A stretch of DNA of 22,858 nucleotides from a virus: IMG/VR virus record IMGVR_UViG_3300042907_001414, positions 1 through 22,858 of that record; one strand, written 5' to 3'. Positions 1 through 12,771 of this stretch are shown piece after piece. The position numbers and the translations under genes are program-made. The notes under the pieces were generated by a model. That model made no database searches and was not told the DNA's origin. It worked only from the letters and a program-made list of their open reading frames with translations. Numbering within the stretch: the stretch's first letter is position 1; each line of letters begins with the position of its first letter.

Positions 1-38
1 GCGGGCGTAACTTTAGCTTGATGTAAAGTTACGCCCGC
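1..38. repeat. Perfect hairpin made of two inverted dyad motifs
   Basis: A 15-bp perfect stem (arms 1-15 and 24-38, GCGGGCGTAACTTTA and its complement) closes an 8-base loop, GCTTGATG. The stem tips carry inverted copies of the TGTAA-type motif that recurs through the first 2.4 kb. Its sister is at 866-901, with the same loop length and nearly the same loop. There is no T tract next to it, so a plain rho-independent terminator is less likely than a protein or RNA structure site. Confidence 0.75.
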
Positions 39-80
39 CGTGTAATAATACGGGCGTGTAATTTTAGAGGGGATAAAAAA

Positions 81-108
81 ACACGCCTGGCTAAAGTACC
101 AGGCGTGT
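81..108 (-). terminator. Rho-independent terminator of the leftward small-gene unit
   Basis: A 10-bp perfect stem (81-90 with 99-108, ACACGCCTGG and complement) has an 8-base loop. On the minus strand it is followed by seven T (complement of 74-80). It lies just beyond the last leftward gene (129-221). Confidence 0.8.
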
Positions 109-128
109 AATTTTACCAGCTTGTAAGT

Positions 129-221
129 TTAGTCTCGTTCCATATACCACGCTAACGCTATCGGTAAGATTAGCCATGACCAAAGGACTACAACCCCGTA
201 GATTATCTTTATTACATTCAT
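129..221 (-). CDS. 30-aa single-pass membrane microprotein
   Basis: A small ORF of 30 residues with one hydrophobic stretch at about residues 3-24 (IIYGVVVLWSWLILPIALAW) and a short charged tail, MERD. The ATG follows the stop codon of the upstream gene (228-455) by six bases, so the junction reads TAA-AATTAC-ATG: the operator-like dyad supplies both the stop and the spacer. Its own TAA stop is also part of a dyad copy (122-131). A GGAAGGG Shine-Dalgarno sequence lies about 12 bases upstream of the ATG. It is the last gene before the terminator at 81-108. Function is unknown; the membrane segment is seen, the role is not. Its size makes this a tentative call. Confidence 0.5.
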   Translation of the reverse strand: MNVIKIIYGVVVLWSWLILPIALAWYMERD

Positions 222-227
222 GTAATT

Positions 228-455
228 TTAGTACCCTTCCGTTTCGCCTAAGTTTGATAGGTATGAGTGTTCGCTATCTTCAATTTGTGTAGTGGTATTG
301 AGTACACCGCAAAACTTACATACGGCGTGGATTTGAGTAAGTGTAAACTTACCGTGTTGTACTTCTACGGAATTGCTACCAATGAATGAATATTCATGGG
401 GTAGGTTATCCCGATAATTTATGCGGTTACGCATTTTGCAGGTTAGGTATGACAT
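228..455 (-). CDS. Hypothetical protein with a CxxC pair
   Basis: 75 residues and no family recognised. The only motif is CKFC near residues 46-49 with another Cys at residue 6, so a single metal or redox site is possible but unproven. It starts with ATG at 455 after a GGAAGGA Shine-Dalgarno sequence; the 9-base spacer is a variant of the dyad (ATATTACAA). It is the second gene of a leftward trio (475-690, 228-455, 129-221) with short spacers. The TAA stop lies inside the dyad copy at 221-230. A further copy (342-352) is inside the coding sequence. Confidence 0.65.
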   Translation of the reverse strand: MSYLTCKMRNRINYRDNLPHEYSFIGSNSVEVQHGKFTLTQIHAVCKFCGVLNTTTQIEDSEHSYLSNLGETEGY

Positions 456-474
456 TTGTAATATTCCTTCCGTG

Positions 475-690
475 TTAGTTTTGGTCTAGTTCAATGTTGT
501 ACATTTTGCGAAACTCACGCACCAAAGGCTTCACGCACTTAGTCGTACCGTGTGTGAAGTATGGAGTTTGGTTTGTGTAATCTTTCGGCGGTGTAATTTT
601 ATAACCTTTCTTTCTATTGTCAATAGTAAAGCCTAGTGACCTTAGTAGTGCGAACAATTTTTTCACACTCTTATCGTTATGAGCGCCCAT
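475..690 (-). CDS. Small HicA-like (YcfA-fold) protein
   Basis: 71 residues. The pattern K-L-F-A-L-L-R-S-L-G-F at 11-21, then a basic turn and GYKI near 29-32, a His at about 47 and a K-P-L-V-R-E-F motif near 54-60 resembles HicA proteins. Those are small dsRBD-fold mRNA interferase toxins whose catalytic His follows a G-S-H or G-Y/H strand. Here the usual G-S-H position reads G-Y-K, so activity is doubtful. No HicB partner is adjacent. ATG at 690 abuts a dyad copy (690-699), with an AAAGG Shine-Dalgarno sequence before it. It is the first gene of the leftward trio. The fold call is from pattern only; a phage protein of unrelated role is possible. Confidence 0.6.
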   Translation of the reverse strand: MGAHNDKSVKKLFALLRSLGFTIDNRKKGYKITPPKDYTNQTPYFTHGTTKCVKPLVREFRKMYNIELDQN

Positions 691-704
691 GTAATTTTAG
701 CCTT

Positions 705-733
705 TCTCTAACCCATTGGGCGGGATTGCCCAA
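705..733 (-). promoter_or_regulatory. Possible promoter of the leftmost trio
   Basis: On the minus strand TTGGGC (728-733) and TAGAGA (705-710) are 17 bp apart. The -35 also lies in a 6-bp hairpin (716-721 with 728-733). The hexamers are only moderate matches. Confidence 0.35.
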
Positions 734-865
734 CAACTAAATCTTAGCCGATAGTTTCATGTAAGTTTAGGTAATTTTAGGATTAGTTTTTGGACACAAA
801 ATGTCTTGTATTATTACATCCCCATAAAGATATTAAAGTATTATTACATGTGTGTAATTTTAAAA

Positions 866-901
866 CGGGTGTAAGTTTAGCTTTATGTAAACTTACACCC
901 G
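866..901. repeat. Second dyad hairpin
   Basis: A 14-bp perfect stem (866-879 with 888-901, CGGGTGTAAGTTTA and complement) has an 8-base loop, GCTTTATG. The first hairpin of the window has loop GCTTGATG. Both arms contain the TGTAA dyad, and two more dyads follow directly (905-916 and 921-931). Confidence 0.75.
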
Positions 902-950
902 CCCTGTAAACTTACATGCGTGTAACTTTACAAACGGGGACAAAGAAAAA

Positions 951-971
951 CCCCTGCGGAGGGCGCAGGGG
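951..971 (-). terminator. Rho-independent terminator after 994-1233
   Basis: CCCCTGC (951-957) pairs with GCAGGGG (965-971). On the minus strand the stem is followed by TTTTTCTTTG. It sits 23 bases past the stop of the leftward gene. Confidence 0.85.
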
Positions 972-993
972 CTAATCTTACTTGCTTGTAACT

Positions 994-1233
994 TTAGTCA
1001 GCAAGAATATCTTCGGGCAGTTCATCTGTAATGTCTCGGTCATCAGCGTCATCCATGTCATCATCCATGATCTGTGCAAAAATTACACTCATGTCAGGAT
1101 CATCACCGTTGTTATTTTTGATAGAGCGCAAGATCTTACCTAGTGCGTCTACGCTCTCGGCTTCGTACAGAAAACTATCTGCCCATTCTGCATCGCCTTG
1201 TTCAAACTGCCAGGATACTTCGTATAGGTTCAT
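994..1233 (-). CDS. Acidic hypothetical protein
   Basis: 79 residues with a strongly acidic C-terminal third (a run of D and E from about residue 55, DDDMDDADDRD). The N-terminal half (MNLYEVSWQFEQGDAEW) looks like a small beta/alpha domain. No family recognised; DNA mimicry is a thought for acidic phage proteins but nothing here proves it. The start ATG is preceded by AAAAGGGG and then the spacer TAAAATTAC, which is a dyad copy (1233-1243). The TAA stop is inside another copy (987-996). It is a single-gene unit with its own promoter (1281-1309) and terminator (951-971). Confidence 0.7.
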   Translation of the reverse strand: MNLYEVSWQFEQGDAEWADSFLYEAESVDALGKILRSIKNNNGDDPDMSVIFAQIMDDDMDDADDRDITDELPEDILAD

Positions 1234-1280
1234 GTAATTTTACCCCTTTTGTCTAAGAGCGACTTGTGTCGCTACGCTCC

Positions 1281-1309
1281 ACCCTATCAGATCCCTAAGG
1301 CAATTACAA
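1281..1309 (-). promoter_or_regulatory. Promoter of the 79-aa acidic protein gene
   Basis: On the minus strand TTGTAA (1304-1309) and extended -10 TGATAGGGT (hexamer 1281-1286) are 17 bp apart. The 20 bases 1301-1320, covering the -35 and upstream flank, match 16 of 20 with 2121-2140, the same place in the promoter of the 142-aa gene. Both read AAAATAGGT(A/G)CTTGTA, which suggests a shared activator or sigma preference. Confidence 0.5.
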
Positions 1310-1472
1310 GTACCTATTTTGAGGCTATAAAAAGCAGCTGTATTATTACATTCCCATAAAGGATGAGTTTTGTAATATTACATTACATAAAGGTATTAAA
1401 CTAATGTTACATTTGTGTAATATTACCACGGGTGTATGGGGTCGCTACGCTGGGGAAGACACCCGCCCGTTT

Positions 1473-1488
1473 GTTGTAATATTACAAC
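1473..1488. promoter_or_regulatory. 16-bp perfect palindrome, probable operator
   Basis: GTTGTAATATTACAAC is self-complementary. It fuses a TGTAATATTACA dyad with GTTG/CAAC ends. It lies at the boundary between the TGTAA-rich and GTTGC-rich zones. Confidence 0.6.
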
Positions 1489-1516
1489 GGTGTACCAAAA
1501 ATGGTGTGTACCAAAT

Positions 1517-1560
1517 ATGCAACACGCATGTTGCAAACATGCAACACACATGTTGCGCAT
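1517..1560. repeat. Two tandem 22-bp units with GCAACA dyads
   Basis: Unit 1 (1517-1538) and unit 2 (1539-1560) both read ATGCAACAC(G/A)CATGTTGC followed by four variable bases. Each contains TGCAACA-4-TGTTGC(A/G). A repeated dyad 25 bases past the terminator of the leftward 142-aa gene suggests a protein-binding site. Confidence 0.7.
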
Positions 1561-1584
1561 TTGCAACAACACATGCAAAAAAAA

Positions 1585-1606
1585 GCGGGGGCATTTCTGC
1601 CCCCGC
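1585..1606. terminator. Strong bidirectional terminator
   Basis: GCGGGGGCA (1585-1593) pairs with TGCCCCCGC (1598-1606) across a 4-base loop. On the minus strand it is followed by eight T, on the plus strand by AATTCTTTTTTG. It ends the leftward 142-aa gene. Confidence 0.9.
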
Positions 1607-1625
1607 AATTCTTTTTTGTTCATTG

Positions 1626-2054
1626 TCACATTTTGACAATGAACACCTTTTCGGCTTGTACCGAAAATGGTTCACGCAATGCTGTTGCGTGGTTGCATGC
1701 CCAAACAATGTCAAGCGTTGCACTGGCGATGTTTTCTTTTTGCCATGACTTCAAGCGCTGACGCATTGCGTTATCGGCACGATAGTTGGTTGCTTTTCGG
1801 CAAACAATGTTTCGCTGTACCGATGGGGCATTATTGGTAATGCACCACTGGCGCATTTCTTCACCACTTGCCAAACCCTTAGGCATGGTTGGCAATGTCA
1901 TTGCAACAGCAATTGCTTCAGCCAAAATCTTTGTACCGTTATCGGTATAAAACTTTTTGACTTGAGCTTTGGAATTGCGTTGCGACTTTGCAACAAGTTT
2001 TTTTTCCAATGCAACAACTTTGGTTGCATCGGCTTTGCGTTTTTTCTGTGCCAT
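1626..2054 (-). CDS. Basic protein of unknown family (142 aa)
   Basis: 142 residues with a Lys/Arg-rich N-terminus (KKRK at 4-7, KK at 18-19 and 33-34). No named family recognised. By eye it shares spaced features with the protein at 2951-3421: LVAKS at residues 20-24 and R-x-D-N-A-x3-R-L at 92-101, against LVAKS at 19-23 and the same pattern at 104-113, so the two may be distant paralogues. The charge suggests nucleic acid binding; that is inference. The start ATG follows AGGGAAAAAAA. It has a promoter (2102-2129) and a strong terminator (1585-1606). The gene and its flanks are crowded with the word GTTGC/GCAAC, in both coding and non-coding sequence. Confidence 0.7.
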   Translation of the reverse strand: MAQKKRKADATKVVALEKKLVAKSQRNSKAQVKKFYTDNGTKILAEAIAVAMTLPTMPKGLASGEEMRQWCITNNAPSVQRNIVCRKATNYRADNAMRQRLKSWQKENIASATLDIVWACNHATALREPFSVQAEKVFIVKM

Positions 2055-2101
2055 TTTTTTTCCCTATCTGTGAAATGTGAAGCGGTTGCTTCAACAACCA
2101 A

Positions 2102-2129
2102 ATTCTAACCGATATCCGTAACAATACAA
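2102..2129 (-). promoter_or_regulatory. Promoter of the 142-aa gene
   Basis: On the minus strand TTGTAT (2124-2129) and TAGAAT (2102-2107) are 16 bp apart. The upstream flank shares the AAAATAGGT(A/G)CTTGTA block with the promoter at 1281-1309. Confidence 0.6.
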
Positions 2130-2463
2130 GCACCTATTTTATGCACTATTTATGCATAAACATGCATAATTATTCATGTCCCATAATGGGGATAATGCCG
2201 TTGCGAATTGACAACTCATGCGTTGCGATAAAGCAACAATTGAATTACTTTTGTGTACTAAAAATGGTACATAGTGTTGCATTTATGCAACGGGTGTGCG
2301 TCTGCTACATTCTTGGGCAGCTCCACACCCGCCCGCCGTGTAATTTTACAGGCGTGTAATTTTAGGTTGAAAAATGGGGGGTTTGTAAACTTACATAAAG
2401 GTAATTTTTGTACGCATTAAAGCTGGATAAAGGGGTATCAGTGTTTTGCTTGGTGCATGGAAA

Positions 2464-2487
2464 AGCCCCCCGATTTCTCAGGGGGCT
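2464..2487 (-). terminator. Terminator after the 46-aa membrane protein
   Basis: AGCCCCC (2464-2470) pairs with GGGGGCT (2481-2487). The minus strand then reads TTTTCC. It lies 10 bases past the stop at 2497. Confidence 0.7.
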
Positions 2488-2496
2488 CATTCCCGT

Positions 2497-2637
2497 TTAT
2501 TTCTTATTGTTTAGGTCTAGCCAGGTCTTAGACATTGTTACATCTTTGACCGCCTTCTCATAACCTGCCTCGTATGCGAACCATACGGCTACGGCTGTCA
2601 CCATGAGGAACATGGTGAACATACCGAACCAATTCAT
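2497..2637 (-). CDS. 46-aa membrane microprotein
   Basis: An ORF of 46 residues with an N-terminal hydrophobic segment (about residues 3-22, WFGMFTMFLMVTAVAVWFAY) and a charged soluble tail (KAVKDVTMSKTWLDLNNKK). Its ATG overlaps the TGA of the gene upstream (2634-2834) in an ATGA arrangement, typical of translational coupling, and a terminator follows at once. The pair is thus a small two-gene unit. Function is unknown; such single-pass proteins in phages are sometimes holins, spanins or superinfection-exclusion factors, and nothing here chooses among them. Confidence 0.6.
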   Translation of the reverse strand: MNWFGMFTMFLMVTAVAVWFAYEAGYEKAVKDVTMSKTWLDLNNKK

Positions 2638-2834
2638 ACGAGACCCCATACATTCAACCATGTCTCCATGATAACTTCGGCTTGTGCCTCATTGACACAT
2701 GGCATGGTGAATAGGTGACTATCTGAACTATCTCCCGTAGGGCTTGAGACCCATATGGTCAGGATATGTCCTGTCTTTACTATTGCTACTGGCATACCCT
2801 TCATTCGGATATTTGGTCTAATTTCGGTATTCAT
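2634..2834 (-). CDS. Hypothetical protein (66 aa)
   Basis: The reading frame is open from 2876, but the better start is the ATG at 2834 (MNTEIRPNIRMKG), which has AAAAGGAAAAACC just upstream; the 14 residues before it look like leader sequence. The product is 66 residues and probably beta-rich (MPVAIVKTGHILTIWVSSPTGDS), with one Cys. No family recognised. It is coupled by a 4-base overlap to the membrane microprotein 2497-2637, so the two may work together. Confidence 0.6.
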   Translation of the reverse strand: MNTEIRPNIRMKGMPVAIVKTGHILTIWVSSPTGDSSDSHLFTMPCVNEAQAEVIMETWLNVWGLV

Positions 2835-2898
2835 AATGGTTTTTCCTTTTCTGTTGTTTTGTGTGTGTGTAATCATGTACTAAATTATCCCCCGATAA

Positions 2899-2943
2899 CC
2901 CCCTACGCCCACGAGGGGGGGGGTAGGGGGGCTTTCGCCCCCC
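2899..2943. repeat. G/C-tract hairpins
   Basis: GGGGGGC (2926-2932) pairs with GCCCCCC (2937-2943) around TTTC. An alternative pairs CCCCCTA (2899-2905) with TAGGGGG (2924-2930). It lies just past the stop of the leftward 156-aa gene. It lacks a T run, so it would be a weak terminator or an RNA stabiliser. Confidence 0.6.
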
Positions 2944-2950
2944 CTTTCGC

Positions 2951-3421
2951 CTACCTCTTGGCGAATACCACGAGGTCGGCTATTTCAGGGTCAGTACCCT
3001 TGACCTTCATGCCGTAGGCGAGACCTCGGCGTGCCTGTACTGCCTTGACCCATGCCATGCCCTTGACCGTTGCGAGGCTATCCAAGCGTACTTGGATCGC
3101 ATTGTCGGGGCGGTCATTGACCTCACTAGCGGTCTTGCCTGCCTTGCCCTGTAGGTGCTGGTATCGCAGTACCGCTGGCACGGTCACGGGCTTGCCTGCC
3201 TCGTATGCCATTGACACTTGAGCCTGTAGAGCCTCTACGCTCTCGCCTCGTACCCATGCCTCGGCTACTGCGGTCAGTAGCACTAGGTCTACATAGGTAG
3301 CCTTGTGTCCTGCCTTGAGGTCTCTGCCTCGCTCTGCCTCTACTGCCTTGAGGCTCTTGGCTACTAGAGCCTTTGCCTCGGTGCTCACCGTGTAGGTGAA
3401 CCTTGCCTTTGCCTTTGCCAT
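2951..3421 (-). CDS. GC-rich, Ala-rich basic protein (156 aa)
   Basis: The start is placed at ATG 3421 (MAKAKARFTYTVS), preceded by GCGAAAGGGTCAGTA; the open frame continues upstream to 3520 through a hairpin and is not needed. 156 residues, rich in Ala and Lys, with long helices (TEAKALVAKSLKAVEAERGR, EALQAQVSMAYEAGK). It shares LVAKS and R-x-D-N-A-x3-R-L patterns with the 142-aa protein at 1626-2054. The gene is clearly more GC-rich than its neighbours and uses a narrow codon set (mostly GCA for Ala, AAG for Lys), so the word AGGCA recurs. Function is unknown; DNA binding is a guess. It has a long structured 5' leader with two hairpins. Confidence 0.7.
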   Translation of the reverse strand: MAKAKARFTYTVSTEAKALVAKSLKAVEAERGRDLKAGHKATYVDLVLLTAVAEAWVRGESVEALQAQVSMAYEAGKPVTVPAVLRYQHLQGKAGKTASEVNDRPDNAIQVRLDSLATVKGMAWVKAVQARRGLAYGMKVKGTDPEIADLVVFAKR

Positions 3422-3440
3422 TACTGACCCTTTCGCTAGG

Positions 3441-3461
3441 GGTTGAGCCCGTTGCTCAACC
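3441..3461 (-). repeat. Leader hairpin next to the ribosome site of 2951-3421
   Basis: GGTTGAGC (3441-3448) pairs with GCTCAACC (3454-3461), a perfect 8-bp stem with a 5-base loop, about 20 bases before the start codon in the leftward mRNA. Confidence 0.6.
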
Positions 3462-3556
3462 TCATGTAATAAACGATACAGGGCATAGGGCAGACATAGC
3501 AAGTACTGACACTCTCGCAAACCCTTATGGAATAAGGGGTTTAGAAATTGTTTGGT

Positions 3557-3565
3557 AATATATCA
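3557..3565 (-). promoter_or_regulatory. Possible extended -10 promoter for the 156-aa gene
   Basis: The minus strand reads TGATATATT. It would start a leader of about 130 bases containing the hairpins at 3519-3542 (AAACCCTTAT with ATAAGGGGTTT) and 3441-3461. No good -35 is seen. Confidence 0.4.
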
Positions 3566-3767
3566 CGAATTGGGTCAAGAATTGGCTCAATGTGACCCCG
3601 TAGGGCATTGACCCTACCCAACATACCAATTCAGGTACACCGTAAAATACGGCATAACACTGTTTTAATATATACTCAATTTTTCTAAAAAATGGCGTGG
3701 GCGGGATTCGGGCATGGGCGGGTTTAAAATTCGGGAGGAAGGCTGGAAGTGTGCTTAGAATAGAAAA

Positions 3768-3790
3768 GAGACCACCTTGCGAGTGGTCTC
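3768..3790. terminator. Terminator of the FmdB-like gene
   Basis: GAGACCAC (3768-3775) pairs with GTGGTCTC (3783-3790) around a 7-base loop. The minus strand continues TTTTCTATTC and the plus strand TCTTTCTTCT, so it can work both ways. The leftward FmdB gene is the obvious user. Confidence 0.75.
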
Positions 3791-3805
3791 TCTTTCTTCT
3801 CAGTG

Positions 3806-3835
3806 AACTATAACGGTCCTAAGATAGCGAAATTC
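3806..3835 (+). other. 30-base near-copy of 23S rRNA helix 69-71
   Basis: The plus strand contains CTATAACGGTCCTAAG, then A, then TAGCGAAATTC. From memory this matches E. coli 23S rRNA from about A1912 to C1941 with one change (G1930 to A), and includes most of the I-CeuI homing-endonuclease recognition sequence. The match stops sharply on both sides: the 5' strand of the helix 69 stem is absent and the bases after AAATTC differ. It lies in the 3' untranslated stretch of the FmdB gene, so that mRNA would be antisense to 23S rRNA. No rRNA gene and no endonuclease ORF is nearby. Confidence 0.8.
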
Positions 3836-3903
3836 GTTCTGCTCTGGTGATAGTGCAGATCACGATTGCCGCTTGACACTTTTAGGGTGCCATAAGTATT
3901 ATA

Positions 3904-4080
3904 TCACTTCTTAGAGTTACGGTAAAATCCACTGCCTTTGAGTTCTATCATCGGCGGGGAATAGATTTGTTTTAGCGTAGCGTTGCATTCGGGGCAAACA
4001 TCTGTTTTACTATCTTCCAGAATGGATCTAAACTCTTCATGAGTATGTCCATTAGAACAGCGATAGTTGTATTGTGGCAT
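3904..4080 (-). CDS. FmdB-family zinc-ribbon protein
   Basis: 58 residues: MPQYNYRC at the N-terminus, a CPEC knuckle at 29-32, then a Ser-Pro-Pro segment and K-G-S-G-F-Y at 48-53. The order Y-x-Y-R-C, CPxC, KGSGFY is the hallmark of the FmdB/CxxC_CXXC_SSSS small zinc-ribbon family, which occurs in many bacteria and phages with no settled role. The first knuckle is altered: the family's CxxC reads C-S-N-G-H, leaving C8 and H12 with C29 and C32 as likely zinc ligands. The start has consensus TATAAT six bases upstream and no Shine-Dalgarno sequence, so the mRNA is probably leaderless. A terminator follows at 3768-3790. Confidence 0.8.
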   Translation of the reverse strand: MPQYNYRCSNGHTHEEFRSILEDSKTDVCPECNATLKQIYSPPMIELKGSGFYRNSKK

Positions 4081-4117
4081 GTTCCCATTATAGCGTAAGG
4101 ATGGTATACTTCCTATT
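4081..4117. promoter_or_regulatory. 37-bp divergent promoter pair (FmdB and ferredoxin)
   Basis: The minus-strand -10 TATAAT (4087-4092) ends 6 bases from the FmdB ATG. The plus-strand extended -10 TGGTATACT (hexamer 4105-4110) ends 7 bases from the ferredoxin GTG. Each -35 region falls on the other promoter or in the other gene, so both cannot be fully occupied at once. Confidence 0.65.
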
Positions 4118-4363
4118 GTGAGAGTTTGGATTGATCAAGACTTATGTACTGGAGATGGTCTGTGCGCCGAGATAGCACCCGATGTGTTTACGATGATGCC
4201 CGATGGTTTGGCGTATGTACGAGAAGGAGACAAAATATTTGCCTCCTCTGTGGGAAACCCCGAAGGCGCAGCTGGCTTAGCTTCTTTCGCTGATGATCGG
4301 CTGGAAGATGTCATTGAAGCCGCCGAGGAATGCCCTGGCGAATGTATTTTCATTGAACCTTAA
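4118..4363 (+). CDS. Single-cluster ferredoxin, 3Fe-4S type
   Basis: 81 residues. C10-TGDGL-C16 near the N-terminus and C72-PGE-C76 near the C-terminus, with A-P-x-V-F and an A-A-E-E-C-P block, match the small Fer4_13/Fer4_15 ferredoxins that hold a 3Fe-4S (or Asp-ligated 4Fe-4S) cluster and often donate electrons to cytochrome P450s. The middle of the usual CxxCxxC is Asp/Gly here, as in 3Fe-4S forms. There is an insertion of roughly 10-15 residues around 40-58. The start is GTG, with no Shine-Dalgarno sequence but an extended -10 seven bases before it, so a leaderless mRNA is likely. It is first in a rightward unit with 4415-5026 and 5044-5442. Which phage or host enzyme it feeds is not visible. 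Confidence 0.85.
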   Translation: MRVWIDQDLCTGDGLCAEIAPDVFTMMPDGLAYVREGDKIFASSVGNPEGAAGLASFADDRLEDVIEAAEECPGECIFIEP

Positions 4364-4414
4364 ACTCACAAACAAAAGCAGGTAAGTTCACTACCTAGTG
4401 CTTTCGTGCCACAC

Positions 4415-5026
4415 ATGATAAAATTGAGTGTGCATAACGATTATGATATGTGGTCAATTGCTGACCATGACCACCTCTGGGTGTTTGACAAGCTGATTGT
4501 AGCAAAGAAAGCTGGGCATGTGTGTGGACCAAGGGGTATGCCCGTTCCCAAGCCCGACTTTTACATGGTAAGACCCATCTCCAACTTTGAGGGTATGGGT
4601 GTAGGAGCTCGCAAGGTCTGGTTAGACTTCTGCACTCTTGAACTGCATCCTGGAGAGTTCTGGTGTGAGTTCTTCACGGGCGATCACATTAGCGTTGATT
4701 ACCACCTGTACAAGCCTGTGTTGACTGTTAAAGGTACTCCACACCCGAATGCACCTCATTCAAAATTTATAAAATGGGAGAAGCTAGAAATATCTATTCC
4801 GCAACCTGCGATGTTGGGTAAGATACCACTCTTTTACAAAACAATCAACTGTGAATTTATCGGGGGTAAACTTATTGAGATACATCTGCGAGGCAACCCC
4901 GACTTTGTGTACGGTAATAACATTGCAATACCCGTGTGGGAAGGAGAAGAGATCAACCCCCCACAATCCATGAGGTTTGTTGAAGCTGAAGATACCAATA
5001 GGCTTGGGTTCTATATAGACAGTTAA
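4415..5026 (+). CDS. Unknown protein, possibly ATP-grasp-like
   Basis: 203 residues from ATG 4415 (MIKLSVHNDYDMWS); a GTG three codons earlier (4406) is the alternative, and neither has a clear ribosome site. The stretch YMVRPISNFEGMG near 50-62, then WCEFFTGDHISVDY near 88-101, and GGKLIEIHLRGNPDF near 152-166 recall the order of nucleotide-binding strands and the terminal (I/V)E-(I/V)-N/H-x-R block of ATP-grasp ligases. That likeness is weak and the usual metal-ligand pair is not certain. It lies between the ferredoxin and the thermonuclease, in the same direction. Call it a conserved-looking phage protein of unknown function. Confidence 0.7.
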   Translation: MIKLSVHNDYDMWSIADHDHLWVFDKLIVAKKAGHVCGPRGMPVPKPDFYMVRPISNFEGMGVGARKVWLDFCTLELHPGEFWCEFFTGDHISVDYHLYKPVLTVKGTPHPNAPHSKFIKWEKLEISIPQPAMLGKIPLFYKTINCEFIGGKLIEIHLRGNPDFVYGNNIAIPVWEGEEINPPQSMRFVEAEDTNRLGFYIDS

Positions 5027-5032
5027 TCGTGA

Positions 5033-5043
5033 TATAATATATC
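5033..5043 (+). promoter_or_regulatory. Leaderless-type promoter of the thermonuclease
   Basis: Extended -10 TGATATAAT (hexamer 5033-5038) lies five bases before ATG 5044, leaving no room for a Shine-Dalgarno sequence. It starts within 10 bases of the preceding stop codon, so the nuclease can be expressed apart from its upstream neighbours. Confidence 0.65.
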
Positions 5044-5442
5044 ATGTACGAATATAGAATTAAGAAGGTTTTGAAAGTTGTTGACGGAGATACCATTGAT
5101 GTGGACATTGATCTGGGGTTTAATATCTCCTATACCCAAAGAGTTAGACTGGCGGGAATTGATACCCCTGAATCTCGCACAAAAGACGCACGAGAGAAGG
5201 CATTGGGGCTTGAGGTAAAAGACAAGCTGAAGAAAGCAATTGACGCTGCCAAAGATGTAGTCGTGAAGACCGAACTCCCCGATAGCTCTGAAAAGTACGG
5301 GCGTATCTTGGGTTGGGTATATCTTGATGGCGCTGCCAAGTCAATCAATGAACAACTCATTGATGAGGGTTATGCTTGGGGATACATGGGTGAAACCAAA
5401 GTCAAAGACTTTGACGCACTCCTGGCAAAGCGAAACAAATAA
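5044..5442 (+). CDS. Thermonuclease-like (SNase) endonuclease
   Basis: 132 residues with the full staphylococcal-nuclease pattern: DGDT at 14-17, R-V-R-L-A-G-I-D-T-P-E at 33-43 (catalytic R35, D40, T41, E43) and K-Y-G-R at 84-87 (catalytic R87), then the N-E-Q-L-I-D-E-G-Y-A helix at 102-111. The OB-fold enzyme uses Ca2+ to cut DNA and RNA. There is no signal peptide, so it acts inside the cell or is packaged; breaking down host DNA for nucleotides fits with the RNR encoded downstream. It is complete and of usual length for a bare domain. The promoter abuts the start (TATAAT five bases before ATG). Confidence 0.92.
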   Translation: MYEYRIKKVLKVVDGDTIDVDIDLGFNISYTQRVRLAGIDTPESRTKDAREKALGLEVKDKLKKAIDAAKDVVVKTELPDSSEKYGRILGWVYLDGAAKSINEQLIDEGYAWGYMGETKVKDFDALLAKRNK

Positions 5443-5443
5443 A

Positions 5444-5464
5444 ACCCTTTAAACCCTTTAAACA
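5444..5464. repeat. Short tandem repeat after the thermonuclease
   Basis: The unit AAACCCTTT occurs twice, followed by AAAC. It sits in the convergent gap between the nuclease (ends 5442) and the leftward unit (ends 5501). No hairpin terminator was seen here. Confidence 0.6.
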
Positions 5465-5500
5465 TCTAGTATTTTCGGAGCCCACATTTTAGAGCCCGAT

Positions 5501-5635
5501 TTATTCATCAAATGATTTACGGAAATTGATCCATGCATCACGATTGGACATTCTGCGAATTCGGGATTGTCTTGTGAAGTAGGCACTTCCTCTAACAACA
5601 ATAAACCCGACCCATATCATAAGTAAGTATTTCAT
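5501..5635 (-). CDS. 44-aa membrane microprotein
   Basis: A 44-residue ORF: a hydrophobic N-terminal helix (MKYLLMIWVGFIVVRGSAYF) followed by a basic tail (RQSRIRRMSNRDAWINFRKS). The start has a strong AAGGAGG Shine-Dalgarno sequence three bases upstream of the ATG, and the ATG overlaps the oxygenase stop codon (ATGA), so translation is coupled. It is the last gene of the long leftward unit. One membrane segment with a positive cytoplasmic tail is seen; function is unknown. Confidence 0.7.
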   Translation of the reverse strand: MKYLLMIWVGFIVVRGSAYFTRQSRIRRMSNRDAWINFRKSFDE

Positions 5636-6186
5636 TTGCCTCCTTGAAAATCAATATTGATAACCATTCTGAATGGAGAACGAACTGGGTTTGAAGCGGC
5701 ATGAATGTTGTTACCATCAAAGATAATAGCTCGCCCTGGTTTTGGATACACAGTGTCCTGAAGTTCATAAGAGTCATTAAAGAAATAAGTTGGTCCATCT
5801 GAATCGTTTATGTAATACAGAAGAACTTTGTGATCAACGGGGTCTCCGTTGTCGTACTGCAAATCAATATGAGGGACTTGAGATTCATACTTCATCATTG
5901 GGGGGTATGGAGAAGTCACATTTACCTTAGCCCGCAAAAGATTAATGTTGCCAAACCTATCTACCAGATTACCGACAAGCTTGCCGATTGCAGGCAGGTG
6001 ACTAGAGGCGATATCTGATTCAGACTCATACAGGTGATGTGACATTTGCATTGGTGCATGATTCCACTTTTCACCCTCGTGATAGATATGGCTGCGGTAG
6101 AACCGATAAGGAACTTGAGGGTCGGTGAAGTATTCATACAGATACCCCTGTTCTTTTATAGGTACATAATTATCAATAATTAACAT
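5632..6186 (-). CDS. Fe(II)/2-oxoglutarate oxygenase, prolyl-4-hydroxylase type
   Basis: 184 residues. The iron ligands are H106 and D108 (V-P-H-I-D) and H162 (G-N-N-I-H), with R169 or R173 as the 2-oxoglutarate anchor (N-P-V-R-S-P-F-R). The layout, starting LIIDNYVP and with Y-I-N-D-S-D-G before the last strands, is that of the P4Hc-like oxygenases common in phages; the substrate is unknown (protein, nucleic acid or a small molecule). The start is ATG 6186, whose A is also the 3' terminal A of tRNA-Asn; the frame stays open through the tRNA to 6246 but that extension is tRNA sequence. No Shine-Dalgarno sequence precedes the ATG. Confidence 0.85.
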   Translation of the reverse strand: MLIIDNYVPIKEQGYLYEYFTDPQVPYRFYRSHIYHEGEKWNHAPMQMSHHLYESESDIASSHLPAIGKLVGNLVDRFGNINLLRAKVNVTSPYPPMMKYESQVPHIDLQYDNGDPVDHKVLLYYINDSDGPTYFFNDSYELQDTVYPKPGRAIIFDGNNIHAASNPVRSPFRMVINIDFQGGK

Positions 6187-6261
6187 GGCTGGCGAGGTAG
6201 GGTTTGAACCTACGACCCAGGGATTAACAGTCCCTTGCTCTGCCAACTGAGCTACTCGCCA
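6186..6261 (-). tRNA. tRNA-Asn (GTT anticodon)
   Basis: The minus strand folds as a full cloverleaf of 76 bases: acceptor TGGCGAG with CTCGCCA, a D-arm with AGCTCAGTTGGCAGAGC, anticodon stem AGGGA/TCCCT enclosing loop CTGTTAA (anticodon GTT), T-arm with GGTTCGAACCC, discriminator G and encoded CCA. It sits inside a protein-coding transcript, between a 26-codon ORF (6267-6347) and the oxygenase whose ATG shares the last A of CCA. It would be cut from the polycistronic RNA by RNase P and 3' processing. Phage tRNAs usually supplement codons the phage uses more than its host. Confidence 0.95.
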
Positions 6262-6266
6262 TTGTA

Positions 6267-6347
6267 TTACTTAATTAACAGTATAGCAATTGTAATTGCA
6301 TGAAGTGTGAAATACACTGCATGAGTAATTTTATCTTGTTTAGACAT
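6267..6347 (-). CDS. 26-aa membrane micro-ORF
   Basis: MSKQDKITHAVYFTLHAITI plus AILLIK: a short polar start and a hydrophobic helix. The ATG overlaps the end of the FkbM gene by 8 bases, and GAGGTG lies 7 bases upstream, inside the FkbM coding sequence. The stop is 5 bases before the tRNA. The placement, ribosome site and hydrophobic composition support a real gene, but at this length chance is not excluded. Confidence 0.45.
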   Translation of the reverse strand: MSKQDKITHAVYFTLHAITIAILLIK

Positions 6348-7101
6348 TCTTAATCACCTCAAATCTAAATTCTATTTGCGGATGGGTGTTGTGTTGAGCA
6401 ATATTGTTTTCACCGATAGTAGTGATGTTATAACCAAGAGATTCAACAAACTTAATAAGCTCTTTTCTCCTATCCTCATACCAGGGCTTATAAGTCCAAG
6501 CTTCAAAAATAATCGGAGGAAAGTTGTTATCTTCAATTGTTTTTAATGCCCCCTTAAGAACTTCCATCTCAAGACCTTCAACATCAATTTTTATCAATCT
6601 AACATTTTTAAAAGATTGCTCATCAAGAATTTTAATTTCAATCTCTTCCATCAATCCTTTAGTTGTACATTCATAATTATTCTCACGAGTTTGTTCATCA
6701 AGGCTAAACGCACCAACATTTGTTTCAGTGGCATAGTCTGGCATTATTACCATAAACTTATCATTGCGATCTGATATACCATAGTTATGACAAACAACAT
6801 TATGCAGAGCATTAATTAAAACATTTGAACATAGCTGATAAAAAATAATTCTTTGCGGCTCAAAAGAGTGAAAAGTTACATTAGGAAATTTCTGGGCGAG
6901 AGGAACCGAGTAGCTTCCTAAGTTAGCTCCGATATCCAGTACAGAACCACCAAAGGTGTTCACAAGAAACCTTTCTGAGATAGTTTCCAGATGCCCTTCC
7001 CAGCCATTACCATTTCTGATTCCATTTGAAACCACATCTGGTTTATCAAACAATAAAAACTGAGTTTCGTTTCTCTTTACGATCACGCAGTTTGGAATCA
7101 T
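6340..7101 (-). CDS. FkbM-family methyltransferase
   Basis: 253 residues. SAM-binding motif I is SVLDIGANLGSYSV at 53-66, an acidic residue follows (E81 in F-E-P), and the family's late block KIDVEGLEMEVLKGA at 171-185 is intact, followed by P-P-I-I-F-E at 195-200. FkbM enzymes O-methylate sugars or other small hydroxyl groups; in phages their target is usually unknown. No membrane segment. ATG 7101 is adjacent to the stop of the metallopeptidase gene, with GGAAG upstream, so it belongs to the same leftward mRNA. With the oxygenases nearby and the distant glycosyltransferase it suggests modification of a glycan, a virion part or a nucleotide. Confidence 0.9.
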   Translation of the reverse strand: MIPNCVIVKRNETQFLLFDKPDVVSNGIRNGNGWEGHLETISERFLVNTFGGSVLDIGANLGSYSVPLAQKFPNVTFHSFEPQRIIFYQLCSNVLINALHNVVCHNYGISDRNDKFMVIMPDYATETNVGAFSLDEQTRENNYECTTKGLMEEIEIKILDEQSFKNVRLIKIDVEGLEMEVLKGALKTIEDNNFPPIIFEAWTYKPWYEDRRKELIKFVESLGYNITTIGENNIAQHNTHPQIEFRFEVIKNV

Positions 7102-7584
7102 TTATTTTTTCTTCCTTACTGCTTTTTTAGCAACTCTTGGCTTAGTTGTTTTTGCCCTTGGCATGTCGGGTGTAGGCATCCATTTACCAAGCGACTCAGA
7201 TATTGCATCAATGATTCTTTCAATTTCATAATCAACAACTGATATTGTTGCTTTATGAATAGCTTTACCTTTTTGATCATCTTCTTCTGGCTTAAGGATT
7301 TCATGAACAACTTCTGATATATGACTCATGTGACAATGAAGAAGTTCATGAACCATCGTTGCACGAATATCTTCAGGCGTATCTTTACGAAAATCTTTAT
7401 GTAAATAAATTGTTGCAAGATTCTGAGCATGTATAACTTCTGTTTCACCTAAAGCATCAACATTGCATGGCTTAGAACTCATGTGAATTGTCCAATGAGA
7501 AAGACCCATCATGTTTTTAAGCTTATTCGCATATCTCTGAATCCAGGGATCAATTGGTTGCACAAGTGGAGTGTTTTTACTCAT
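7102..7584 (-). CDS. Zincin-type metallopeptidase
   Basis: 160 residues with HELLH at 79-83 (M-V-H-E-L-L-H-C-H), the zinc-binding and catalytic motif of gluzincin/minigluzincin-like peptidases, preceded by I-Y-L-H-K-D-F strands. The third ligand may be in the E-V-V-H-E or D-Y-E-I-E-R helices (about 91-95 and 119-125). The C-terminus is a Lys/Arg-rich tail with K-K-A-V-R-K-K-K, which could contact nucleic acid. The fold resembles SprT-like or phage ImmA-like proteases, but no helix-turn-helix is fused. Start ATG 7584 overlaps the upstream stop (TAATG). The target is unknown. Confidence 0.75.
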   Translation of the reverse strand: MSKNTPLVQPIDPWIQRYANKLKNMMGLSHWTIHMSSKPCNVDALGETEVIHAQNLATIYLHKDFRKDTPEDIRATMVHELLHCHMSHISEVVHEILKPEEDDQKGKAIHKATISVVDYEIERIIDAISESLGKWMPTPDMPRAKTTKPRVAKKAVRKKK

Positions 7585-7859
7585 TAGTGTCCACCGTTAA
7601 AACCATTCATATTTTCCATAACAAGCATTCTCTCGGCTTCATCAGAAAAAAGACGAACTGCATAAATACATGGGTCACTACCCTCTTCCCATTCTAAATC
7701 TTCATCATGAGTTGTTGGAATGCCATCATGAGTTGAACATACTGGTCTGCTGATCCAACCGTTGTTTATCCCAGTATTAATCCATTGTTCAAAATTCACT
7801 TCCATTGTTCCAAGAAATGGATTAAAATTTTTTTCTGTGTCATTAAAATTATTTGTCAT
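7584..7859 (-). CDS. Small acidic hypothetical protein
   Basis: 91 residues from ATG 7859 (MTNNFNDTEKN), with GAGGA a few bases upstream inside the previous gene; a GTG one codon earlier is possible. The core WINTGINNGWISRPVCSTHD followed by G-I-P-T-T-H-D-E-D-L-E-W-E-E-G-S-D-P-C-I reads like a conserved phage protein seen in actinophages, but I cannot name a function. Two Cys and two His could bind a metal. It overlaps the hydroxylase gene by 11 bases and the peptidase gene by one. Confidence 0.75.
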   Translation of the reverse strand: MTNNFNDTEKNFNPFLGTMEVNFEQWINTGINNGWISRPVCSTHDGIPTTHDEDLEWEEGSDPCIYAVRLFSDEAERMLVMENMNGFNGGH

Positions 7860-8643
7860 CACTGTCCTCTTTGTATTTATTTATTACAGTATATCCAGTT
7901 TCTGGACATAAGTTGGTATCTGTAATAGAATCTATTTCTTTTCTTACAACTACTCTTTTCAACCACCGATCTGATCCGTCATATCTTGCGCTAAATGATG
8001 TTCTACCATGAACAGTTGTTGCGTTGTCAATTATAATTAGATCACCAGTGTTTAAAAAAACTGTTTGTTTATTTCTTTCAATAGCTTTATTAAAAACATC
8101 CAAAGCCATTTGCGCTTCTTCTGTTATTCCCTTCATAACGGTTCTATCATATTTCATTTTGTATTGACCATTTGAATCAGCAGTTAGAACTGGAAGTCTT
8201 ACAAATGTATCTTCTTCCCCATTTAGTCTAAAGCTCTCATCAACAGATGTTTCAAACAAATCTTTCTTTAAAATATTAACAACCCCAATATGTATATCTT
8301 TCAATACATCAGATAAAAGAGCATATGTTGTTCCAGCATTTTCATCTCCACGCAAACACAGCAATAGCAGGTAGTCTGGGAGATGCGGATGAAAAGCAGC
8401 TTCTGTGTGAAGCTCTAGCGTAGCTTTTGATGATGATGATATTTGATCTTCTGCTGATTTTTTAATCGGAAAAATATTTTGAACAATTTTCCCATTTTGC
8501 TCCTGAAGGTACCCAACAGGATGCCCGTATCTTTTCGCATAGGAAAGGATTACTTCGTCAGCTTCATCTGTGCTTGGAATTGTTGATAAGCTAAAAGGTG
8601 TTGATGGAATATCGCCAATATTTAAATCTTTAAATAAAATCAT
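7849..8643 (-). CDS. Clavaminate-synthase-like amino acid hydroxylase (Fe(II)/2OG)
   Basis: 264 residues of the TauD/clavaminate synthase superfamily. H79-T-E81 and distal H212 (D-N-A-T-T-V-H-G-R-T) are the iron ligands; R226 or R230 in the D-R-W-L-K-R block should hold 2-oxoglutarate. The stretch LHTEAAFHPHLPDYLLLLCL followed by R-G-D is typical of the branch that hydroxylates free or carrier-bound amino acids (asparagine and arginine beta-hydroxylases), distinct from the P4H-type enzyme at 5632-6186. The family use of Glu as second ligand instead of Asp is kept. It is coupled by ATGA to the DUF1599 gene upstream. The substrate is not predictable from sequence; an amino acid or a modified base precursor is possible. 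Confidence 0.85.
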   Translation of the reverse strand: MILFKDLNIGDIPSTPFSLSTIPSTDEADEVILSYAKRYGHPVGYLQEQNGKIVQNIFPIKKSAEDQISSSSKATLELHTEAAFHPHLPDYLLLLCLRGDENAGTTYALLSDVLKDIHIGVVNILKKDLFETSVDESFRLNGEEDTFVRLPVLTADSNGQYKMKYDRTVMKGITEEAQMALDVFNKAIERNKQTVFLNTGDLIIIDNATTVHGRTSFSARYDGSDRWLKRVVVRKEIDSITDTNLCPETGYTVINKYKEDSDDK

Positions 8644-9281
8644 AAATCACCCATTGGTAACAAGAACTCTTCACGAATCCACATTATTGCAATCGCAGCG
8701 TAGCCGCCAATATCAAGCAATGTATCATAAATGCTTTCATTTGATACTGCATTAGTTACTCCTTTTGGTTTTGACAGAAGATTTTCTAATCTCGCAACCT
8801 TGTCGTGTAGTCTGATGGTAAGACCATTTAGCCCAAATCTTTCAATATTTTTTGGACCATAGTCTTTTTGTTTCTTAATCAAAGTAGATGTGAGCATTTC
8901 TTTATTCAACTCAATACCATTTACTTTGCAATAATGTAGAGCGACAGCACCAATCATTGACCATAGCCAACTATGGTACTGTCGGCAATACATCAGCTTA
9001 TCATCATTCTCTCCTGGGTAATAATGTGGATCACTCTCCCATGCCTTACTATCAATGCACCAGTCAATAATATTTTTGATATTACTGATGTGGTCATTTG
9101 ATAGCTCAATGTTTAAACCATCCCAATAAAAATTACTCATTCGTGATTTTTGAGAAGTACCGCACTCAAGGGTCATGCCAGTTATATCAAACCTATCTAC
9201 GAACCAAAACAAATCCTTTACGGCTTCTTCCGCACAGAATTCCCATGATTTCATATTTCGCACAACCACTTGCTTCTCCAT
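8640..9281 (-). CDS. DUF1599 (nucleotide-modification-associated) protein
   Basis: 213 residues. The C-terminal 85 (KKQKDYGPKNIERFGLNGLT onwards, with R-L-H-D-K-V-A-R-L-E-N-L-L and E-S-I-Y-D-T-L-L-D-I-G-G-Y-A) carry the DUF1599/Nmad1 signature, an all-helical domain related to MazG-like nucleotide pyrophosphohydrolases, found with phage base-modification genes. The acidic E and D residues of the D-T-L-x-D-x-x-G-Y helix are the likely metal ligands. The N-terminal 110 residues are Trp- and Cys-rich and not recognised. The context with two oxygenases and a methyltransferase fits handling of unusual nucleotides, by inference. Its stop overlaps the next start by 4 bases. Confidence 0.75.
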   Translation of the reverse strand: MEKQVVVRNMKSWEFCAEEAVKDLFWFVDRFDITGMTLECGTSQKSRMSNFYWDGLNIELSNDHISNIKNIIDWCIDSKAWESDPHYYPGENDDKLMYCRQYHSWLWSMIGAVALHYCKVNGIELNKEMLTSTLIKKQKDYGPKNIERFGLNGLTIRLHDKVARLENLLSKPKGVTNAVSNESIYDTLLDIGGYAAIAIMWIREEFLLPMGDL

Positions 9282-9283
9282 AA

Positions 9284-9739
9284 TTAACTATTTGCTCTTT
9301 CTACTTTTGGATCTACAATTTCAAAATGTCCACGCTTTACTTTCTTAAAGTAACCACGATTAGCATTGTAAAAATTGTAGAATGTTGGCAATGAGATTTC
9401 TACATTCGTAGAAACTTCAATCGGTGTTACTACCTTTCCAACATTGCCTGTCAAAAAACTGACAATATTATCTTGCTTGGATTTTCTTCCAGCCATAATC
9501 TTCTCCCCCCTTTCTGTGAAATCAAAGAGGTCTGCATAGTAGCTATACACTTCCTCTGAAATGTTATAGTGCTTGATTGTCTTAGACGGAGCCCATCCTT
9601 TGTAGTGACCATATATCACACTATAGGCTTCTCTATGACTATCAACAGGGACTTTGGAAATTAGATTGTCGCAAATATTGTCAAAATCTTTAGTTCCAAT
9701 AAAATCATTATCTTCTTCAATAAAGCTTTCATCTGACAT
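9284..9739 (-). CDS. Probable DNA-binding (winged-helix-like) protein
   Basis: 151 residues. The acidic N-terminal 80 residues contain an apparent helix-turn-helix (VYSVIYGHYKGWAPSKTIKH, read from S40). The C-terminal half is basic: a GRKSKQDNIVSFLTGNVGKV helix, then SLPTFYNFYNANRGYFKKVK and R-G-H-F-E-I-V-D-P, which looks like a winged helix with a beta-wing. It is the first gene of the long leftward unit, a usual place for a regulator. It has a promoter (9768-9796) and an AGAAAGAAGAC ribosome site. DNA binding is inferred from pattern, not from a named family. Confidence 0.7.
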   Translation of the reverse strand: MSDESFIEEDNDFIGTKDFDNICDNLISKVPVDSHREAYSVIYGHYKGWAPSKTIKHYNISEEVYSYYADLFDFTERGEKIMAGRKSKQDNIVSFLTGNVGKVVTPIEVSTNVEISLPTFYNFYNANRGYFKKVKRGHFEIVDPKVERANS

Positions 9740-9767
9740 CTTGTCTTCTTTCTCTTAGGTCAATGAG

Positions 9768-9796
9768 AGATTACCACTTATAAAAACGAAAATCAA
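9768..9796 (-). promoter_or_regulatory. Promoter of the long leftward unit 9739 to 5501
   Basis: On the minus strand TTGATT (9791-9796), a 17-bp spacer and extended -10 TGGTAATCT (hexamer 9768-9773). It drives at least nine genes and the tRNA. Confidence 0.65.
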
Positions 9797-9812
9797 GTCA
9801 TAAATAAAAAAA

Positions 9813-9875
9813 TAGCGGGTATCTCCACCACCTACATAACCTTTCGGAAAAATATAAGCCTAGAAATACCCGCTA
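9813..9875 (-). terminator. Terminator with a long structured loop
   Basis: TAGCGGGTAT (9813-9822) pairs with ATACCCGCTA (9866-9875), a perfect 10-bp stem. On the minus strand it is followed by seven T, in the right place to end transcription after 9879-10115. The 43-base loop is unusually long and contains a small CC-GAAA-GG hairpin, so it may have a further role. Confidence 0.7.
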
Positions 9876-9878
9876 AAA

Positions 9879-10115
9879 TTATTTAGTTGTAGTTTTCTTA
9901 ACTGCTTTCTTCACTACTTCTTTAGCCGCTGTTACAGCGTGTGACTCAATATGTCTATCAAGTTTAACTTCTACATTAGAAACATCTTTATGTAGATCGG
10001 TTAGTAAAGATGCGACTACGCCATGATCTTCTTTATTTTCTTTTCTTGTTTGCTGAATTAGTGCTGCTAGGATTCCTCCTACAGCAGCGATTAGGGCAAC
10101 GGTTATAGCTTCCAT
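9879..10115 (-). CDS. Small membrane protein with coiled coil, holin-like
   Basis: 78 residues: a hydrophobic N-terminal helix (about 3-22, AITVALIAAVGGILAALIQQ), then a charged heptad-like segment (VVASLLTDLHKDVSNVEVKL) and a basic Lys/Thr tail. This layout, one anchor plus a cytoplasmic coiled coil, recurs in actinophages beside lysis genes and in DUF2746-like proteins. No lysin is adjacent here, so a holin role is only one option. It is the last gene before the terminator at 9813-9875. No clear ribosome site is seen before the ATG. Confidence 0.7.
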   Translation of the reverse strand: MEAITVALIAAVGGILAALIQQTRKENKEDHGVVASLLTDLHKDVSNVEVKLDRHIESHAVTAAKEVVKKAVKKTTTK

Positions 10116-10124
10116 GTGCCGTGA

Positions 10125-10508
10125 TTACTCTGCAAGCAAGAAACTTGCAATGTCCTCAACTGCCATGTCAAACTTACCGAACTGACCTTCGTGCTCGGAA
10201 AGAATTTCAATCAAATCACTCTTCTTAACAGTTTTTGGGTCAAGAGCAACTTCCTTTGTCGGTGAAGTCATTCCAGCACCAGATGTTGGAGCAGAAGCTG
10301 ATCCGCCAGTCGGTACGCCAGAAACTTTCTTTTCTGGATCAAGAGGAACTTCATTAATCATTCCCTTGATCATATTAACTTGTGAATCGTGCCAAGCAGC
10401 AGCCTTGATGTGATCTTGCATTTGTTCAGCAGCAGCTTTTGCCGATGTCTCATGCCAGGACTTCATTGCGTTGTGGTCAGAAACCATCTTCTTCATATTG
10501 TCTTTCAT
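10125..10508 (-). CDS. Unknown protein, helical N-terminus and disordered linker
   Basis: 127 residues. The N-terminal 50 are amphipathic with many Met, His, Ala and Lys (WHETSAKAAAEQMQDHIKAA). A Gly/Ser/Pro/Thr-rich linker follows at about 62-85, then a helical C-terminus (VKKSDLIEILSEHEGQFGKF). No family recognised. Good Shine-Dalgarno AAGGAG five bases from ATG. It has its own promoter whose -10 lies in a 20-bp palindrome (10528-10547), so it is likely controlled by a dimeric DNA-binding protein. A structural or packaging accessory role is possible. Confidence 0.75.
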   Translation of the reverse strand: MKDNMKKMVSDHNAMKSWHETSAKAAAEQMQDHIKAAAWHDSQVNMIKGMINEVPLDPEKKVSGVPTGGSASAPTSGAGMTSPTKEVALDPKTVKKSDLIEILSEHEGQFGKFDMAVEDIASFLLAE

Positions 10509-10527
10509 AGAATCTCCTTATATCAAA

Positions 10528-10562
10528 GATATGCTTATAAGCATATCATATTTATTATTCAA
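10528..10562 (-). promoter_or_regulatory. Promoter with -10 inside a 20-bp palindromic operator
   Basis: On the minus strand TTGAAT (10557-10562), a 17-bp spacer and TATAAG (10534-10539). The -10 lies inside the perfect palindrome GATATGCTTATAAGCATATC (10528-10547). The 9-mer GATATGCTT also overlaps the -10 of the promoter at 12338-12365. Confidence 0.65.
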
Positions 10563-10563
10563 A

Positions 10564-10575
10564 GGGTGTACACCC
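10564..10575. repeat. 12-bp palindrome GGGTGTACACCC
   Basis: A perfect palindrome 8 bases past the stop of 10583-11521. It may be a weak terminator stem (followed by TTTG on the minus strand) or a binding site next to the promoter at 10528-10562. Confidence 0.5.
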
Positions 10576-10582
10576 CATCTAC

Positions 10583-11521: not shown

Positions 11522-11532
11522 AGTAACTATTA

Positions 11533-11556
11533 GTTTATCATGAATTATTGATAAAC
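11533..11556. repeat. 8-bp inverted repeat between leftward genes
   Basis: GTTTATCA (11533-11540) and TGATAAAC (11549-11556) flank an 8-base centre, directly before the DUF5872 gene and after the stop region of 11545-11832. It overlaps a possible extended -10 (TGATAAACT on the minus strand). Confidence 0.5.
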
Positions 11557-11832
11557 GCTATATAAGTCATCACGACCCCATCTTTGAACGGGTATCTTTA
11601 CATCGTGATAATAAGCATAAGCGTCTTCAGACGAATAGTATATTCTGGCGTAGGCTTGCAGAGCGCCCTCGTCATAGACTGGACACTCAGGATTTGGATC
11701 TAAGTATAAAGCTTTATAGTGATACTTATCTCCCTCCCAATGTATTGCATTAGCAACGCTTAGTTTCTTAAAGCAATACGGGCAAATTTTTTCAGGATAA
11801 GGAAAATCCTCAATCACTCTCCCCAAAATCAT
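11545..11832 (-). CDS. Hypothetical protein with a CPYC knuckle
   Basis: 95 residues. C17-P-Y-C20 followed by aromatic-rich sequence (HWEGDKYHYKALYLDPNPEC) suggests a small zinc-binding fold with a later Cys at about 50 and nearby His. The C-terminal half has many Tyr (ARIYYSSEDAYAYYHDVKIP). No family recognised. ATG 11832 overlaps the upstream gene by 23 bases, so it is translated from the same leftward mRNA. Confidence 0.7.
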   Translation of the reverse strand: MILGRVIEDFPYPEKICPYCFKKLSVANAIHWEGDKYHYKALYLDPNPECPVYDEGALQAYARIYYSSEDAYAYYHDVKIPVQRWGRDDLYSVYQ

Positions 11833-12097: not shown

Positions 12098-12278
12098 ACT
12101 TACTTTCAGTAATCACTGCAATAAATAACGCAAAAATACTAAAAATCATCTGGAGAGAATATACAGCAAGTAATGGAGAAATCCAACCGATATCGGTATT
12201 CATACCGAATTCAATAGAATACTTAATACCTAAAAGCGATAAAAAACTCCAGATAATATAAGCAATAAAATTTTTCAT
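12084..12278 (-). CDS. Two-helix membrane protein
   Basis: 64 residues with two hydrophobic segments (about 4-21, FIAYIIWSFLSLLGIKYS, and 32-57, ending in IFALFIAVI), a short loop between and a charged end. The size and two-helix form fit a holin or other small phage membrane protein; no specific family is recognised. It is the first gene of its leftward operon. The start ATG is six bases from an extended -10 (TGGTATCAT), with no room for a Shine-Dalgarno sequence, so the mRNA is probably leaderless. Confidence 0.7.
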   Translation of the reverse strand: MKNFIAYIIWSFLSLLGIKYSIEFGMNTDIGWISPLLAVYSLQMIFSIFALFIAVITESKYANK

Positions 12279-12293: not shown

Positions 12294-12337
12294 GATTGCT
12301 TCGGAAAAAAAATTAGTAAAAAAATATTTTTATCCCC

Positions 12338-12765: not shown

Positions 12766-12771
12766 CAACAA

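Follow-up and report, generated by a model that had tools for sequence, protein, structure and literature searches.

Genes A and B of an uncultured-phage record of 22,858 bases in IMG/VR (the window, that is, the whole stretch of DNA analysed) encode, as comparative sequence analysis indicates, small basic proteins that are distantly related and belong to a single phage-specific family. The product of gene A would bind DNA as a dimer and autoregulate through private operators, and that of gene B would be its diverged paralogue in a two-slot pair, a reading to which a probability of about 0.6 was assigned. Both open reading frames of the initial annotation were present, coding for basic proteins of 142 and 156 aa (K+R minus D+E, +15 for A and +9 for B) that carry LVAKS, from residue 20 in A and residue 19 in B, and R-x-D-N-A-x3-R-L, as RADNAMRQRL in A and RPDNAIQVRL in B. 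The two word biases it had pointed out were also found: GTTGC/GCAAC occurs 9 times in gene A and 20 times in positions 1401-2360 (2.6 expected, as derived from window positions 4101-22858), and TGCCT/AGGCA 14 times in gene B (0.7 expected). Its proposal of diverged paralogues with separate recognition zones held for the divergence of A and B within one family and for the recognition-like sites at A, but not for a zone belonging to B. The features are detailed in Table 1.

Table 1. Position and strand of the features described in the window.
Feature	Position	Strand	Remarks
Mixed dyad GTACC-N6-GCAAC	1508-1523	.	
Exact dyad GTTGC-N6-GCAAC	1530-1545	.	Downstream of the terminator of A
Exact dyad GTTGC-N6-GCAAC	1552-1567	.	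22 bp from the 1530-1545 dyad
Terminator-like hairpin	1585-1606	(-)	After gene A
Gene A	1626-2054	(-)	142 aa; A-slot member of the phage-specific A/B family
Exact dyad within gene A	1979-1994	.	Encodes VAKSQ
Near dyad, one mismatch	2200-2215	.	22 bp from the 2222-2237 dyad
Exact dyad upstream of A	2222-2237	.	
Near dyad GTACT-N6-GGTAC	2255-2270	.	
Exact dyad upstream of A	2276-2291	.	Equivalent in L003 is GTACC-N6-GGTAC
Gene B	2951-3421	(-)	156 aa; B-slot member of the A/B family; TGCCT excess confined to the coding sequence
Leader hairpin of gene B	3441-3461	(-)	Sense GGTTGAGC-AACGG-GCTCAACC; stem covaries

Compared directly, A and B gave no BLASTP alignment and a pairwise z of only 2.1, and the small alignments A1 and A2 alone reached 33%. 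These values would suit two unrelated proteins, with common motifs due to chance and both words being codon-use artefacts, a view that is highly improbable in the light of the bridging homologues from other uncultured-phage contigs. As the direct comparison failed, intermediates were required, and the paralogy was borne out through them only. Four other records contained close relatives of A, and five contained close relatives of B; further records were obtained by scanning for the conserved element adjoining B, and the profile of A detected members there, singly or in pairs. In tblastn searches A was matched by members of L026, L019 and L023 at E 2e-11 to 6e-11, and the two members of L026 gave pairwise z values of 18.2 and 21.6 with A and of 7.6 and 7.7 with B; weaker values were obtained for B with L024 (2.4) and for A with the A-slot member of L130 (3.8). 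A profile free of B recovered all five B orthologues at 17.9-21.3 bits, whereas 1500 shuffles, made from two B sequences and one A sequence, reached 12.2 bits at most. The profile-profile comparison proposed in the initial annotation gave 86% (E 4.9e-6) for A3 against B; with the family alignment that includes the A rows it gave 92.9% (E 3.7e-7; best of 60 column-permuted controls, 3.8%), and with that lacking the A and B rows a weaker 65.2%.

The joint profile A4, built with the A and B of the window plus several other members, was applied to 11 records, the window included. Exactly two members, in two fixed slots that both lie left of the small-RNA element described below, were present in ten of them, which also argues against unrelated proteins, and the eleventh, an 8.8-kb record that stops short of the A slot, had one. 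Rows contained in A4 match it by construction; A-slot members of G007, G010 and G011, outside A4, matched at E 7.8e-9 to 7.5e-7. The motif R-x-[DE]-N was present in 21 of 23 rows, the exceptions being the A-slot members of L020 and L027; those of L130 and L134 also lack it and read MRPELAVLAIM. R-x-D-N-A-x3-R-L thus represents a genuine family motif in its local form. LVAKS, regarded earlier as a shared feature, was found in only 8 of the 23 rows, each of them closely related to A or B, and the VAKS of A is encoded by a dyad. The slots did not form two clean clades in a tree in which long branches meet and from which four near-copy rows had been removed beforehand; two changes were required, and a single change was obtained in 0 of 200 bootstrap trees.

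A trio of RGRKSN paralogues, adjoining TGTAA words, was observed in L006 (5038-5310, 5846-6142 and 6588-6929), with homologues; in relatives it lies past the left edge of the window. Its kinship with A and B, suspected from a similar C-terminal pattern, was discarded (hhalign, 0.2%). An array of GTATACC words lies upstream of one RGRKSN gene, at about 7690-7790 of L006.

Searches for folds and domains are counted against the reading of A as an autoregulator, as neither a fold nor a DNA-binding domain was recognised. Predicted models were of low confidence (mean pLDDT 67.8 and 57.5) and had no significant structural match with Foldseek; sequence searches against the PDB gave nothing significant, and the best Z of a VIA structure search for A was 6.0, within the range rated as common by the tool. 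No Pfam family exceeded its cut-off for the A/B family members scanned. The resemblance to small terminase subunits was weak and below the curated cut-offs, both for A with the Sf6-type (PF20901; E 0.078) and for the L029 member with Terminase_7 (PF25673; E 0.019, 15.4 bits versus 27); with 13.5 bits, A fell short of the Pfam gathering score of 27 for an Sf6-type small terminase. The L029 member also weakly matched PHROG 1725, 'DNA binding protein' (E 0.014), which was unmatched by the other five members scanned, and PHROG matches were in no case better than weak. Three family members tried against INPHARED had no match, A3 yielded 15 pattern matches and no relative in a single scan of genome contigs, and literature searches returned no title or abstract opening on the A/B family or the small RNA.

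A scan of the window for dyads with all 5-base half-sites and gaps of 0-16 placed TGTAA-N2-TTACA (7 in 1.5 kb) and GTTGC-N6-GCAAC (5) at the top. The five exact copies of the latter contrast with 0.008 expected locally (2000 simulations), and the best cluster over 360 local shuffles had two. Within the coding sequence of A alone the excess of GTTGC was modest (9 versus 5.8 from its own codons, p 0.03). The dyad was then counted in ten records that include the window and total 452,930 bases; some are close relatives and thus not independent. Nine of them had exact GTTGC dyads, 25 altogether, all 25 inside the A-slot gene or at most 222 bp away; the A-slot gene ±300 bp represents 2.3% of these bases. 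Seven lie within the gene and 18 outside it, a location that codon use in unrelated A and B would not account for. A reversed control pattern was absent from all ten records. A near-identical record of L002/L005 (99.97% over 6,002 bases) was excluded from this count, and L007 and L129 stop before the A slot and are uninformative on the link between dyad and gene. L130, which has no GTTGC dyad, carries GTACC-N6-GGTAC at its A module; all four exact sites of this form are in the A module, in L130 and three records with GTTGC. Both half-sites switched together at two homologous places: GTTGC...GCAAC in the window is GTACC...GGTAC in L003, and GTTGC in L126 is GTACC...GGTAC in L128.

Intragenic dyads fall on different codons, encoding VAKSQ in A and VAFWQ in the L026 homologue. 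Across four orthologues no synonymous change was found in the intragenic dyad of A, whereas 37 of 101 residue-invariant codons do change synonymously, and the longest run of fully identical codons, nine, spans this dyad; taken alone, this codon conservation lends modest support. In positions 1519-1563 five half-sites follow one another in alternation, spaced by exactly 11 bp, and dyad spacings are often 21-22 or 33 bp, together with 16, 27, 28, 36, 38, 46 and 59 bp, none of which is divisible by 11. Viral sequences scanned for runs of three alternating half-sites yielded 98 stretches; among the 80 listed, those of the family were L025 and L004, and none of the other 78 was recognised as family in one tblastn search with the A, B and R proteins.

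Geometry, confinement and paired switching of the dyads are as would be expected from a dimeric regulator with private operators, and A is inferred to be that regulator from the linkage of the sites to its gene. The dyads could instead serve as operators for a different protein, a regulator encoded by the host or elsewhere by the phage, that would control the A module while A acts otherwise. Such an arrangement, for which the lack of a recognised binding domain in A speaks, is considered unlikely: the exact sites of both words in the 452,930 bases, 29 in total, are without exception located at the A-slot gene, while for a host regulator further sites at other places would be expected, and the intragenic sites occupy different codons in different homologues. 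The arrangement in L026 and L027 also speaks for another protein: with the A-slot gene inverted, the cluster is still found between the gene and the right-hand hairpin.

Six of the ten records (L126, L127, L128, L130, L132 and L134) have the A-slot gene in inverted orientation, which speaks against simple promoter repression as a full account. As read by eye in L026 and L027, the inverted gene keeps a terminator, with the dyad cluster behind it and not at the promoter, so the form of any autoregulation at the promoter is not conserved; the inverted orientation would be better accommodated by boundary or looping control. It was also considered that the dyads act in the transcript, as RNA stem-loops that A or a processing enzyme recognises; this appears distinctly improbable. 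Switching of both halves does resemble covariation of an RNA stem, terminator-like hairpins are in excess in positions 1-4100 (16 versus 4.0 expected) and one covarying hairpin is present in the leader of B; on the other hand, the stem of the dyads keeps nearly the same five letters while the loops vary, half-sites alternating at an exact 11-bp period fit DNA geometry, and the sites occur after terminators and in genes of either orientation.

According to the preferred reading, A would bind GTTGC-N6-GCAAC as a homodimer, with half-sites about one helical turn apart, at candidate sites upstream of, inside and after the terminator of its own gene, and would regulate the transcription of its own module. 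The spacings of 21-22 or 33 bp are such that A dimers would line up on one face of the DNA and may loop. Autoregulatory dimeric repressors of phages and plasmids have clustered palindromic operators, in some cases with an intragenic site. Palindromic sites at the own gene, as expected of dimeric autoregulators, are present for A, and the half-sites about one turn apart and the sites upstream of and inside the gene recall this class; unlike it, A has no recognisable repressor fold, sites are also clustered after the terminator, and the gene is found in both orientations. The stoperators of Cluster A mycobacteriophages such as L5 and Bxb1, in the part of the source available (PMC6550527), are many short sites whose sequence differs between related phages, located throughout the genome and oriented with transcription. 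Compared with that account, the A dyads are similar in having a phage regulator, presumed here to be A, many short sites and sequence variation between phages, but they are palindromic and confined to one module (25/25); a stoperator layout as described there was rejected, the sites being neither genome-wide nor one-oriented.

The repeated word of gene B derives for the most part from protein sequence and codon choice. All 14 copies are on one strand, and 11 of the 14 AGGCA copies are at xAG|GCA codon junctions (6 Lys-Ala, 4 Glu-Ala and 1 Gln-Ala), with Ala encoded by GCA in 16 of 28 cases and Lys by AAG in 15 of 15. Synonymous reshuffling yielded 9.2 TGCCT on average (p 0.008 for the 14 seen), so codon use explains most copies but leaves an excess. 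Complete explanation by codon use was to have told against the initial annotation; being incomplete, it does so only in part, and the predominance of codons would suit unrelated A and B. The L003 orthologue, 60% identical, was not enriched (5 versus 5.8 expected), and modest excesses were found in close relatives (L004, 13 versus 9.4; L006, 13 versus 9.3; L007, 7 versus 4.2). No repeated dyad was found around B, with a maximum of one copy in positions 2400-3800. TGCCT was thus discarded as an operator of B, and with the excess limited to the coding sequence the separate recognition zone proposed for B was not upheld. GGTCA was observed eight times in gene B (2.3 expected from its own codons) and is absent from the L003 orthologue.

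The leader hairpin of B was represented by five distinct sequences, all with the loop AACGG and with two-sided changes at three of eight pairs; 8 of 12 leaders had the AACGG form. Its covariation score exceeded those of all 500 shuffles and every slid version, and the number of pairs changed on both sides was unremarkable (as high in 103 of 500 shuffles). B, as a diverged paralogue, may have a target that is not visible in the DNA, and this hairpin could be a control element. A speculative extension, of low probability, is that of a phage-only regulator family with one fixed pair per phage, in which A has a private set of operators in and around its gene and switched its word from GTTGC to GTACC, with the two half-sites changing together, and B moved to RNA-level control via the covarying AACGG hairpin.

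Other elements were observed nearby. A conserved candidate small-RNA gene (window 3764-3906, minus strand; 126-173 nt as folded across loci) was found at 12 loci in total: the window, L003, L004, L006, L007, L126-L130, L132 and L134. Its extended -10 is TGATATAAT in 11 of the 12 and TGCTGTAAT in L129, a terminator is present, and all 12 share the same 26-nt core, the listing being confined to loci with an exact copy. This core is antisense to 23S rRNA helix 69-71, and annotated 23S genes match the region at 31 of 33 bases; the single change relative to the Escherichia coli 23S sequence would presumably leave a G-U pair. The exact core was present in 14 IMG/VR stretches and no genome contig, and the locus had no match in Rfam. 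TGTAANNTTA words are dense in leftward modules, mostly in intergenic positions (window 1-1500 and 2340-2395; L026, L132 and L130), and their central two bases vary by phage: GT in 17 of 43 and neither TA nor TT in L132; TA in 18, CT in 18 and TT in 12 of 75 in L026. A tRNA-Asn gene is located at window 6186-6261 (minus strand).

Although the A/B family has no Pfam match above cut-off and only weak PHROG matches, the sequence by itself is enough to read its candidate sites. In two related genes lying side by side, an operator-like word at A was told apart from a mostly codon-made word in B. The ten records with their half-site variants constitute a ready set for the study of specificity change in a putative DNA-binding protein of unrecognised fold and, if the proposed reading is true, a two-slot family with a switched word would be a natural series for the co-evolution of a regulator and its sites.
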